DNA from: Fabrea salina
Taxonomy: Eukaryota; Ciliophora; Heterotrichea; Heterotrichida; Fabreidae
Assembly: GCA_022984795.1 (NCBI GenBank)
Contig: JALIHJ010000003.1
Span: forward strand, 62,001-126,000
DNA length: 64,000 nt
Reading direction: 5' to 3'
The notes below the pieces were generated by a model. That model was not told the origin of the DNA. It saw only the letters and a list, made by a program, of their open reading frames with translations, and made no database searches. The position numbers and the translations under genes are program-made. Below, piece by piece: positions 16,251-60,851 of this stretch (positions are counted from its first letter, which is position 1; the number at the start of each line of letters is the position of its first letter).

Positions 16251-16460
16251 TTATTTAGCTATCACTTGCAAGGCTTGGAACAAAGCTGAACCCACTACTA
16301 CGAAGAGGAAGAAAGCCAACAGAACTGGGCCTAGGTTGGAGTCGTCGCTTTTTGTTTTCTAATTAAAAGTTACAGCTAGGGACTCAGGCACTTTGCCCCT
16401 CTTCTCTATGTTTTTCGAGTGTGCTTCGCTCTTGAGCTTGAGTTGTTTCTTTGAGGCCAT
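16251..16460 (-). CDS. SERP1: RAMP4/SERP1, Sec61-associated ER stress protein (one intron)
   Basis: A 64-residue tail-anchored ER protein that associates with the Sec61 translocon and stabilises nascent membrane proteins. It is encoded by two exons (complement of 16374-16460 and 16251-16358) around a 15-nt phase-0 intron. Before the intron the protein reads KSEAHSKNIEKRGKVPE, as in animal RAMP4 (EKHSKNITQRGNV). After it comes NLGPVLLAFFLFVVVGSALF, the conserved C-terminal membrane helix. Without splicing, a TAG at the intron end would cut the protein after 34 codons and remove the helix. Human RAMP4 has 66 residues. This gene is the cleanest proof of the 15-nt intron in the window. Confidence 0.95.
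16359..16373 (-). other. 15-nt intron in RAMP4
   Basis: Sense sequence GTAACTTTTAATTAG, phase 0, candidate branch A at position 10. Removal restores the conserved RAMP4 frame; retention gives an immediate in-frame TAG. Confidence 0.95.
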
Positions 16461-16486
16461 TTTTATCACCTTATGTAAGAGCTTAA

Positions 16487-17569
16487 TTAATAGGTGTAGT
16501 TGCTAACGTAAAGGCTCTCAGTAGCAGTAGATCCACCAGCTCCTCCTTCGTACTGCCCTAGAGTAGCCTTGGAGTTGGCTTGGCACCTTTGTAACAGTAC
16601 TTCTCTTGCAGCTTCTACGTTCTCGGGTTTTCCATTCCAAGTCTTCAAACAAGAAGCTTGAAGAGCTCTTCCGAACGAGAAAGACAAGTACCAGGGCCTC
16701 TTCACACCTTCTACAGCGTTGATGGCGTTTAGTTCAAGTGAAGCTTCCTCTTCACTCTGTCCTCCAGACAAGAAAAAGATCCCTGGCAAAGCAGCAGGAA
16801 TAGTTCTGCTCAACACCTGCACGGTCTTCCAACCAACGTCACCTGCGGTTGCCTTCTCAGAGCACTGCATTCCTGGAGTGATCATGTTTGGCTTCAAGTA
16901 ACACCCTTCCCAAAGGATTCCTTGGTCGTGAAGCTCCTTCACCACTGCTGCAAACACTCTTTGGGACTTCTCAGCGCACTCCAAGATGTTGTGTGAACCG
17001 TCGCACAAAAGTTCAGGTTCCACTATGGGCACCAAGCCGTTTGCCTGGCAGATCACAGCGTATCTAGCAAGTGAGTGTGCGTTCTCAGCTATAGCTCTTT
17101 CACTAGGAAGGTTGGGTCCGATTTTAAGGGCGGCCCTCCACTTGGCGAACCTGCACCCCTTTTCATAGTAAGTTTTGCAGCGAGCAGCAAGTCCGTCAAG
17201 ACCCATGGTGGCTGTTTCTCCGTCGGTTCCGGGAATGACTTCTAGTCCCTTGTCCACTTTGATGCCTGGCACGACTCCTTCTCTGTTCAAGTACTCCAAA
17301 AGAAGAGTTCCGTCGGGTGCTTTGTTGTCCAGAGTTTCTTCGAACTGAATCACTCCGCAGAGGTACTGGCCAATTCCTGGAGTCATGAACAGTAGCTGCC
17401 TGTAGGCTTGCCTGTTTTCGTAGGTGTTTTCCAAACCAATGGTTTCAAAGCGCTTTCCGATGGTTCCAGTGGACTCATCTGCTGCCAGGATTCCTTTGCC
17501 TGGAGTGCACATGCGCTTGGCTGTTTCGATCAATTCAGGGATGAAAGGGTTAGCTGCTTTCTGAGCCAT
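16487..17569 (-). CDS. FBA: Class I fructose-bisphosphate aldolase
   Basis: A 360-residue glycolytic enzyme that cleaves fructose-1,6-bisphosphate into two triose phosphates through a Schiff base. Visible motifs are [17 protein letters not shown], the catalytic region [54 protein letters not shown] with the Schiff-base Lys, and [19 protein letters not shown]. The C terminus ends in Tyr (SLYVSNYTY), as in the animal and plant enzymes where that Tyr takes part in catalysis. Length is typical. An upstream in-frame TAA fixes the start at 17569, next to a TATAAAA run. With phosphofructokinase it is the second glycolytic gene in the window. Confidence 0.97.
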
Positions 17570-17695
17570 TTTTTATAAGCCATTCATAGTTCATTACGTA
17601 AGAATTCAGAGTGGACTTCTGATCCATTGAATTTGCAACATCTTTATCCAGCATGGTCAATTCTAAATAGGCCAAAGAGTCCTTAGTTAAAGTAA
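17570..17695. other. 126-bp intergenic region
   Basis: It lies between the aldolase start and the stop of the phosphotransferase gene. It holds a TATAAAA stretch touching the aldolase ATG. On the minus strand a short open stretch with an ATG at 17660 overlaps the aldolase start, but has no recognisable product. Confidence 0.5.
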
Positions 17696-58028: not shown

Positions 58029-58055
58029 ATTATTTCGCCTAACTACAGTTTACCA

Positions 58056-58961
58056 ATGGAGACTGACCAAACAAATCCAAGTCAAAACAAGTATGCAGTT
58101 ACTCTGAAAGAAAAATTTGGGTATTTGTACGACGAAAACGGGCTTCTCAAGAACTCAGAAACAGGAGAAGGATTCCAGTTTGTTGACCAGAACCACTATG
58201 AAGAACTAGGTGACTTAGTCACTAATTACATCCAAGAAGAAATGAAACTTACTTACGGACTTGAAGAAGTTTGGATTCCTAAAGACTTTGAAGATTCGCC
58301 TAAGTCCAATATATTTATTTCACAGGACTGGGAACAAAACACTTCAAAAGCTTTGCTACTCATTCAAGGAGCTGGAGCAGTAAGGCCAGGAGTTTGGGCA
58401 AGGTCCGTAGTAATCAACGAAAGCCTTGAAACTGGAAGTATGCTCCCTGCTATAAGGGAAGCCCAGAGCCAAGGCTACTCCTTGCTGGTTTTCAACCCTA
58501 ATGTGCACAGAGACCCAGAAACTAAAGAACCTATTCCTTTGAACGACACTCTTTCAGCCCACAGCAACTACATGTGGAGCACTTTCGTTAGTAAGTCTCC
58601 TGCCCAGGAAATCTTTATCATTGCTCACTCTTGTGGAGGAGTAAGTACTATGGAGCTCATGAAACTCCACTGGGAAGACTTTTCGCAAAGAGTAAAAGGG
58701 ATTGCTTTTACAGATTCCGTCCACAGCGTAGACCCTAGGTTTACAAAGGAACAAAAGGACTTCCTCATGGAGAAGTCAGTAGACTGGGTTACTTCAAAGA
58801 AACAAAGAGACGAACTTGTAATGAAAAAGGGATACAACGGATGCGTAAATGTGTCAGCAGGGCACACCAGGCACGAATACACTACTGGGTATGCTTTTCC
58901 TTCGATCTTTCCTTTTTTCAGCAGGTTGAGTGAAGGTTCTAACCCCTACCATAATATATAA
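58056..58961 (+). CDS. Arb2/FAM172-type alpha/beta-hydrolase-fold protein
   Basis: A 301-residue protein. The core resembles the Arb2 domain: ALLLIQGAGAVRPGVWARSVVI, SQGYSLLVFNPNVHRD, IFIIAHSCGGVSTMELM and KGIAFTDSVHSVD, near the end HTRHEYTTGYAF. HSCGG sits where hydrolases have the nucleophile elbow, so an active serine is possible. In fission yeast Arb2 belongs to the ARC complex that loads siRNA on Argonaute; in animals FAM172A acts with AGO2 and splicing factors. A role in small-RNA biology is inference only. The ATG at 58056 is the first one outside the divergent WASHC2 gene. Stop TAA directly abuts the next ATG. Confidence 0.85.
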   Translation: METDQTNPSQNKYAVTLKEKFGYLYDENGLLKNSETGEGFQFVDQNHYEELGDLVTNYIQEEMKLTYGLEEVWIPKDFEDSPKSNIFISQDWEQNTSKALLLIQGAGAVRPGVWARSVVINESLETGSMLPAIREAQSQGYSLLVFNPNVHRDPETKEPIPLNDTLSAHSNYMWSTFVSKSPAQEIFIIAHSCGGVSTMELMKLHWEDFSQRVKGIAFTDSVHSVDPRFTKEQKDFLMEKSVDWVTSKKQRDELVMKKGYNGCVNVSAGHTRHEYTTGYAFPSIFPFFSRLSEGSNPYHNI

Positions 58962-60851
58962 ATGGGCTGTTGTTCTTCTGGAAGAAGCAGAATGCCTCTT
59001 TCTAGTGAGTGTTACTCTGAAAGTGCTTTTGAAAAGCAACTAAGTCAACTTTCCCCCATCAATGAAGAACTTTTAAGAGTTAACGTAAAAGAAATCCACA
59101 TAACAAACAACGCTTTTAGAGTAGTAAAAAAACCTTTTAAGGTTTTCCTAAGACTCAAGTACAAAGAAACCATTGTGAACACTGAGAAACTAAACCTACA
59201 GGGACTGCACTACCTTTCCAAACCAACAGACGACTTAAGTTTCGAAGCTATTTACGAGCAAAAACCAGTCGAGATTGTACTGATGTGCACCAAAAGAGGA
59301 AAGGACACAGAAATAGGCTACATGAATGTTAACACTGACTTCTTAACTAAGCACTCCAAGTTCGAAGGAGTCCTTCACTTTTTTTACAGGTGCCAGAAAA
59401 CTGGAACTCTTAACTGCGAAATCTCAAAAGAACAACTAAACGAAATGAACTTCATGACTCTCACAAACATCCACAGGAACAAAGTTACTAGTCTTCCAGT
59501 TAAAGAGTACCCTCCTCAGTACAGTTCCCACTTCCACAGAACTCCTGGTTTCTTTTCGGAGAGTTCTTCGTTCGAAAGGGAACTAACTACTAAAGTAGAC
59601 TTTTCCAACACTCTGAACAAACTTAAAAACCAGGTAGTTCCTTTCGAAGAACTTTTAGAAAACCTTAAAACTGAAAACTCCGAAGTAGTGTACTACACTT
59701 GTGACAAACTTAAGTTCTTTGCAAGTCAAAAAGCTTATGCAACCAAAATACTAACCCAAGTTGAAGTAATCAAGCACATAACAACTAACTACTCAGGTGA
59801 CAAACTGGTGTGTGAGCAAGTTCTAGGACTGCTTTACAAACTCGAAGAGTCAGTTTCGGTAACTGCTAAGCAGCTAGGTCCTGTCTGGAACAGCGACGCA
59901 GGAAATTTTATCAAGGGCATCATTAGCATTTGGGAAGAGTACCACAGCATAGAGTCAACTAGTTACTGTATAGAGTTAGTTATTAAGTATATTTCAGACA
60001 CCCACAAACAACATAAGCTCAAGTTTCTATTTAAGTCTGAAAAAATTTTGCCTTTGCTTTTCAAAAACTTAAGCAAGTTCATTTCCCCTCAAATAGCAGT
60101 TCCGAGTTTTATACTGCTAAGTGAAGCCATGCAAATGAACTCTCAAGAAACAGTAAAAACTAGTTAGTGCGAAGAAGTCTTCCAAAAAAACATAATGAAC
60201 TACTTAGACGGGCTTCTGGCTTCCCACTGCCTGAACAATGAAGTAGTGACTTACTGCCTTAAGGTGTTGAAGGACTTCATAGGTTCTGGGAGTTTCAAGC
60301 ACAGAGTAGCGCCGTTGATTTCTTTCGAAAGACTGAAAGACATTAGGAAGCTCTACAAAAAAGACCTGCCTAAACTTAAAACAATCACTTTTCTCATCTG
60401 CGACTTGATTTCGAGTCAGGAGAAGATTTGTAGTGTGTACGAACTTAACACAGGAATATCTATTCTGCTCAACATTTTATATAAACAAAAAGAAAACATT
60501 GTAATTGGCGAGTGCATTGCCTCAACCCTTACCAACTTAATTAACAAGCTCGACAGAGTCCCTACTGAAATGGAGACTGCAAACTCTTTAGAGCTGATTT
60601 ACGAAGTGCTGAGCACAGTCATGTTTGAGCCTAAACCTTGTTGTTGCTTGCTTGAGTTGCTCCACAGCATAGTTTCCCGCCAAAGTGCAGTGAAGTCTTA
60701 CGTGTGCAGTAACCAAAACTTCTTAAGTCTTTTTAAAGAAATGCTAAACCACCACAACATTCCAAGCACTGGGTGTCTTTTGGGGCATGAAAAACAAATT
60801 TCAAATATTAGAGTAATTTGTGAAGAACTTATAGAATTTAATCCGAATTAA
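58962..60851 (+). CDS. Myristoylated protein with C-terminal helical repeats, one 15-nt intron
   Basis: A 624-residue protein made from 58962-60152 and 60168-60851. It begins MGCCSSGRSRMPLSS, a myristoyl/palmitoyl signal. Residues about 45-180 form a beta-rich region that could be C2-like (FKVFLRLKYKETIVNTEKLNL). From residue 230 on, long amphipathic helices appear (VVYYTCDKLKFFASQKAY, KLVCEQVLGLLYKLEESV, ECIASTLTNLINKLDRVP) and suggest an armadillo or HEAT solenoid. The intron removes a TAG that would cut the protein after residue 401. The start codon follows the stop of the Arb2-like gene with no base between. I do not recognise the family. Confidence 0.8.
60153..60167 (+). other. 15-nt intron in the myristoylated helical protein
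   Basis: GTAAAAACTAGTTAG, phase 0, A at position 10. Removal links MNSQET to CEEVFQKN in the same frame. Confidence 0.88.

Follow-up and report, generated by a model that had tools for sequence, protein, structure and literature searches.

In a 64,000-nucleotide (nt) stretch of the Fabrea salina genome (contig JALIHJ010000003.1, positions 62,001 to 126,000; hereafter the window), four genes are interrupted by six segments of exactly 15 nt, which are almost certainly regular U2-type spliceosomal introns, reduced to a fixed length in the somatic genome of this heterotrich ciliate. They are placed beyond chance by a genome-wide peak of intron-like matches at 15 nt, by a gene finder left free to choose intron length, and by intron positions common to a paralogous gene.

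All six 15-mers are carried by the coding strand, five on the minus strand and one on the plus strand. One (GTAACTTTTAATTAG, 16359-16373, minus strand) interrupts in phase 0 a RAMP4/SERP1-like gene (16251-16460, minus strand; Pfam E 9e-23). Three belong to a choline/ethanolamine phosphotransferase (CDP-alcohol phosphotransferase) gene of four exons (17696-18859, minus strand; 372 residues once spliced): intron 1 (GTAAGCTTTACACAG, 18702-18716) falls after residue 47 in phase 2, intron 2 (GTAAATTCCAGTTAG, 18677-18691) after residue 51 in phase 0, and intron 3 (GTAAGTTTTATTTAG, 18129-18143) after residue 228 in phase 2, all on the minus strand. The other two, both in phase 0, are found in genes with no assigned function: GTAAGTTTTACCTAG (21389-21403, minus strand), detected without any constraint on length or branch, in a gene coding for 392 residues once spliced (21185-22378, minus strand), and GTAAAAACTAGTTAG (60153-60167, plus strand) in a gene coding for 614 (58992-60851, plus strand). 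Each of the six introduces an in-frame stop when retained and leaves an open frame when removed. The coordinates, the 15-nt length, the form GTAA-N5-A-NN-YAG and the repair of the frame had all been predicted from the sequence, and are borne out at every site. The original prediction was slightly too narrow in assigning this one form to all introns: it is the main form, and others begin with GTATT or GTGAG or end with AAG. Among 19 introns of 15 nt listed by the gene finder described below, one starts with GTATT, one with GTGAG, and two end with AAG. Since introns with coding support on contig C1 (56752-56766, minus strand, and 123828-123842, plus strand) start with GTATT and GTGAG, GTAA is not obligatory.

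Comparison with relatives bears on the junctions. The spliced RAMP4/SERP1-like protein aligns without gap, across its junction, with residues 1-62 of the solved SERP1, and the phosphotransferase gene matches both Pfam and solved relatives across its junctions. The 392- and 614-residue genes are backed by the gene finder and by their frames; a Pfam search of their spliced products at E 0.001 gave nothing. A relative of the former (P0003, 98% identical) and two of the latter (P0001 and P0002, 95-96% identical) terminate within the same intron as the window gene, their intron-internal ends reading VSFT and VKTS.

The length spectrum was analyzed on the whole genome (18,328,466 bases, 103 contigs). 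Briefly, the pattern GTAA...A..YAG, with the A six nucleotides from the end (-6), was counted at lengths of 14, 15 and 16 nt, giving respectively 1383, 2873 and 1424 matches, against 610, 819 and 922 for a reversed-pattern control. Because the forward counts at 14 and 16 nt also exceed the control, which we attribute to composition, the neighbouring lengths were used as background. This leaves an excess of about 1,470 at 15 nt, which is a minimum since other intron forms exist. With anchored ends and a free middle, 1379 matches were found (reversed control 110), and 15 nt accounted for 39 of the first 100 listed; a tighter anchored form gave 179 matches (control 10), with 15 nt in 53 of the first 100 listed. 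In these two sets of 100 listed matches, no other length was present more than 6 and 4 times, the averages being 2.1 and 1.9, respectively. A class of 14-nt introns, hinted at by 6 of the 100 matches listed for the anchored form, was rejected, as neither the tighter form (1 of 100 listed) nor the genome count of 1383 supports it. The prediction had taken the introns for the fixed 15-nt type of heterotrichs and had proposed a genome-wide scan with its length distribution; this type is supported by the scan. Since only 15 nt stands out, the scan does not show the widely spread lengths that would speak against it.

An approach that imposes neither GTAA nor the A at position 10 (A10) gave the same length. 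We ran a gene finder based on codon log-odds on both strands of the window and of 200 kb of contig C1, with GT/AG ends as sole requirement and introns of 8-60 nt. At the strictest penalty, 15 nt was the length of 12 out of 45 introns, and every other length was found three times at most; when five decoy dinucleotide pairs took the place of GT/AG, 0-2 introns of 15 nt were obtained. Under lower penalties the 15-nt count stays at 12, and the many calls added at other lengths are about as frequent as with the decoys; the finder is thus noisy, and none of these calls is claimed as an intron. Limiting it to 10-24 nt yielded 19 introns of 15 nt, all with A10 and all with T at position 9 (T9). With length fixed and a penalty of -3, A10 was present in 20/20 introns of 15 nt versus 13/55 at 12, 13, 14, 16, 17 and 18 nt. 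We rejected the use of in-frame stops as a proof of selection, because the finder sees only those introns that interrupt a frame.

The spliceosome of this organism was examined through four small nuclear RNAs (snRNAs), U1, U2, U5 and U6, searched for genome-wide with Rfam cut-offs. Each gave one match above its cut-off. The sequence near the 5' end of U1 (CCACUUACCUGG), the branch-binding GUAGUA of U2 (GUGUAGUAUC) and ACAGAGA in U6 are all unchanged, and the RNA core thus looks standard. Among proteins, Cwc25 was represented by a single Cir_N match genome-wide (locus L043; E 3.7e-27 to a solved CWC25 homolog). Its N-terminus, MGLAFLNKKSWH, whose initial methionine follows an in-frame stop, has Gly2 and lacks Gly3 and Gly4. 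In Stentor, as reported in PMC9505925, the Gly2-Gly3-Gly4 plug, the part of Cwc25 inserted into the active site, is missing. The loss of two of the three plug glycines is in line with the idea of a steric clash, and may be ciliate-wide. The difficulty of fitting a 15-nt intron into a normal active site is acknowledged, and is discussed for Stentor in the same source. The original prediction held that such introns strain any standard spliceosome model, and this is qualified here: the RNA core looks canonical, and the altered Cwc25 N-terminus, together with the branch signal, may be an adaptation to 15 nt.

The branch signal was described on 25 introns, i.e. 19 from the finder, three from the window and three from the paralogous locus L034 added by homology, these last six fitting the pattern by selection: A stands at position 10 in all 25, preceded by T in 23 of them and by C in the other two. 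Background-corrected genome counts give T 0.83 and C 0.28 at position 9 (first 100 listed 15-nt sites; 41 of 100 listed 16-nt sites). In the branch consensus yUnAy, the base at -2 faces A35 of U2. A passage in PMC13167188 gives yUnAy as the human consensus, with a nearly fixed U at -2, and places the base at -1 opposite U34. In Fabrea it is the base at -1 that is fixed as U, and it pairs with U34 in none of the 25 introns. In the standard register, with A10 bulged, 39% of positions are paired, below all of 2000 shuffles (mean 52%). In a contiguous register covering positions 6-11, with A10 opposite U34, 73% are paired (shuffle mean 64%, value reached by 0.35% of shuffles), and 76% if position 11 is bulged. 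RNAduplex, applied to the 25 introns against U2, returned weak and mixed pairings, from -8.5 to +0.5 kcal/mol, which do not settle the register. As the registers were compared post hoc, U-rich sequence pairs easily and RNAduplex is indecisive, the shifted register is a lead only. Tentatively, and with the odds rather against it, heterotrichs might have a contracted branch site Y-U-A, with U at -1 and not -2, and a U2 register shifted by one step that places A10 opposite U34 rather than bulged; the oddly placed branch adenine would then help a 15-nt intron to fit the active site. It could also be a protein, SF1 for instance, that T9 serves.

Introns 1 and 2 of the phosphotransferase gene are separated by an exon of 10 nt, TCCGAATGCT (18692-18701, minus strand), which completes a His codon and then encodes Pro-Asn-Ala. 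Its Pro-Asn is common to the solved phosphotransferase relatives, and of 33 aligned relatives having residues at this place, 29 show A-P-N by our own count on the alignment. Genome-wide, paired 15-nt introns of the strict form lie 1-31 nt apart at two places (reversed control 1). The second place is a paralogous phosphotransferase gene, L034 (1358-2479 on contig C29, 33% identical), which also has a 10-nt exon and whose three introns are all at matching residues and phases (residue 47, phase 2; residue 51, phase 0; residue 228 or 218, phase 2). Pairs 32-62 nt apart number 14 (control 0), these counts not being filtered for coding sense, and the match density leads us to expect about 7 per spacing class by our own arithmetic. 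Very short spacings may therefore be rare, a weak statement. If the contracted branch site is real, nature would put this spliceosome to its tightest test where two such introns enclose an exon of only 10 nt. As a separate observation, the L034 paralog lacks in the alignment the catalytic residues of DG..AR..G..D..D, which the window copy retains; to judge from its sequence, the paralog is perhaps a pseudoenzyme.

Another relative of the phosphotransferase, P0010, shares 48% of residues with it over 60% of the query and has an insert V-R-C-T-Q exactly at the place of intron 2. Back-translated, this insert reads GTN...ACN-CAR, its tenth position being A. At the place of intron 3 the protein ends in Lys, like the unspliced frame of the window. 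The insert looks like an unspliced 15-nt intron without stop, suggesting that stop-free 15-nt introns surface as false five-residue inserts in the predicted proteins of such organisms, whose protein catalogues may contain more of them.

We infer from frame and homology that the six introns are removed ahead of translation, and the order of splicing would be as follows. U1 would pair with GUAAgu at the 5' end of the intron, U2 would then engage Y-U-A around A10, A10 would act as the branch nucleotide, and the lariat formed would have a 10-nt loop and a tail of 5 nt, the last two being AG. The 10-nt exon would be joined by two splicing events. Since the splice sites would be fixed relative to the branch, intron length could not drift. 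As 15 is a multiple of three, an intron that is kept would be harmless to the frame unless it bears a stop, which the consensus would usually supply in phases 0 and 2.

A 10-nt loop may seem too tight, and a non-standard removal, e.g. 5' cleavage without lariat, could be proposed in its place. Such a route would account for the poor pairing of a bulged A10 with U2, below all shuffles, and for the loss of two plug glycines from Cwc25. We consider it improbable: a branch-free route would not need A10, which was found in 20/20 introns without being required, and the four snRNAs retain their key motifs. A simpler layout for the phosphotransferase gene would be a single 40-nt intron at 18677-18716, exons of 10 nt being rare. 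Removal of these 40 nt breaks the frame and leaves many stops, the 10 nt encode residues conserved in solved and aligned relatives, and the same 15-10-15 layout recurs in the L034 paralog, which together make this very improbable.

Equally slight is the probability that the 15-mers were left over from DNA elimination, as internal eliminated sequences of very small size, or are mistakes of the assembly. Ciliates do excise short DNA pieces from genes (passage in PMC9942806), and single insertions could be errors of assembly; the GT...AG ends, A10 and sense orientation of all six fit RNA splicing instead, two of them also stop the frames of the near-identical P0001-P0003, which come from other assemblies, and three have counterparts in the L034 paralog. 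Finally, the 15-mers might be kept in the messenger RNA, with their stops read through and residues added to the proteins, as stop codons are reassigned in some ciliates. This we find scarcely credible, less so than any of the above. A canonical code is reported for F. salina in a passage of PMC10553269, and SERP1 and the phosphotransferase relatives lack such residues (P0010 excepted, its insert resembling an unspliced intron); readthrough would moreover leave the fixed 15 nt and A10 unexplained.

Several results weigh against the interpretation of the six segments as fixed-length spliceosomal introns, or limit it. In the window, the pattern was matched 10 times, with 5.54 +/- 2.26 matches in shuffles and 3/100 shuffles reaching 10; being near chance, window counts were not used as evidence. 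Two of the four other window matches (6337 and 25823) are antisense to predicted genes. On 264 kb (the window and the 200 kb of contig C1), 15 nt comes top of lengths 11-30 with 38 matches, a modest peak, the next being 27 at 13 nt. No excess was detected genome-wide at 16 nt (1424 versus 1383 at 14 nt, and 3 of 200 listed anchored sites, a background level), which by our own arithmetic is compatible with a 16-nt share of a few per cent. In the finder, weaker penalties dilute A10 among 15-nt introns to 26/46, then 111/329, through false calls. With free length, it recovers one of the six window introns at a penalty of -9, three from -7 to -2.5, four at -1.5 and five at -0.5, where 256 introns are called; only one to three of the six are thus recovered at usable penalties, and the introns beyond its recovery lean on homology. 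As to homologs, the relative search returned for the 392- and 614-residue proteins only three near-identical ones (95-98%), so that the junctions of these genes rest on frame and codon signal. At the three intron places of the phosphotransferase, no insert was found in six full-length relatives, P0004-P0009 (40-44% identity). At least P0007 is derived from a transcript, and hence possibly spliced, so these insert-free proteins say little on their genes. At the place of intron 1, P0010 runs straight through, with no intron; this intron was either gained here or lost in the lineage of P0010, and the arrangement of a short exon between two introns depends on it.

Introns of this type are already known. 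Slabodnick reportedly described 15-nt introns in Stentor coeruleus in 2017, and the F. salina macronuclear genome was reportedly published by Zhang in 2022 as having 18.35 Mb and "tiny introns". According to a passage in PMC11441545, heterotrich introns measure 15 bp in about 95% of cases and 16 bp in the remainder, and for Stentor a passage in PMC9505925 gives 92.8% of introns at 15 nt, with 90.9% of all introns having both 15 nt and A at position 10. The same source (Nuadthaisong 2022) shows how close S. coeruleus is to the present case: 15 nt, GU-AG ends, A at position 10, canonical snRNAs, a U-rich branch region and an altered Cwc25 N-terminus. It differs by its 7.2% of 16-nt introns (passage in PMC9505925), whereas no 16-nt excess was detected in the Fabrea genome. 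The commonest Stentor intron is GUAAUUUUUAUAUAG; in Fabrea, starts of the GTAAG type are frequent, as are ends of the CTTAG type. Blepharisma stoltei is likewise a heterotrich with tiny introns of fixed length; it has both 15-bp and 16-bp introns and uses UGA for Trp (passages in PMC9942806), whereas only 15 nt was detected here. Loxodes, a karyorelict from the sister group, also has very short introns; these are variable in length, with a mode of 17 bp and negligible numbers below 16 bp (passages in PMC11441545).

For F. salina itself, a passage of PMC13344042 cites the genome paper as reporting that introns have, close to their 3' end, a branch-point adenine that is conserved, and the open-literature passages that name Fabrea give no intron lengths. 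The length of 15 nt and A10 are known from heterotrichs and Stentor, and the branch adenine is cited for Fabrea. Three features may be new: no 16-nt class is detectable, a conserved exon of 10 nt lies between 15-nt introns, and the fixed U is at branch -1 instead of -2. The smallest known introns set the limit of what a spliceosome can handle, and the Fabrea genome combines, as far as measurable, one intron length, standard motifs in four snRNAs, the loss of two of three Cwc25 plug glycines and a 10-nt exon between 15-nt introns.

Other genes of the window were identified by Pfam as single frames without internal stops: a chitin synthase (1793-4003, plus strand), radial spoke protein 3 (13980-16031, plus strand), a class I aldolase (16487-17569, minus strand), an aspartyl protease (19964-21130, minus strand) and an X-family DNA polymerase (30880-31932, minus strand). 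Scans of the 64-kb window for tRNAs and with Rfam gave no matches. A single stop-free frame of 4087 codons extends from 34438 to 46698 on the plus strand. Inside the 614-residue gene, GTAACTGCTAAGCAG (59859-59873, plus strand) lies in frame in phase 0 and is stop-free; it could be a further 15-nt intron, a candidate on which sequence alone cannot decide. Lastly, GTAAACTGTAGTTAG (58039-58053, minus strand) ends 10 nt ahead of the start codon of a predicted gene (56355-58028), and is a candidate intron of the 5' untranslated region.

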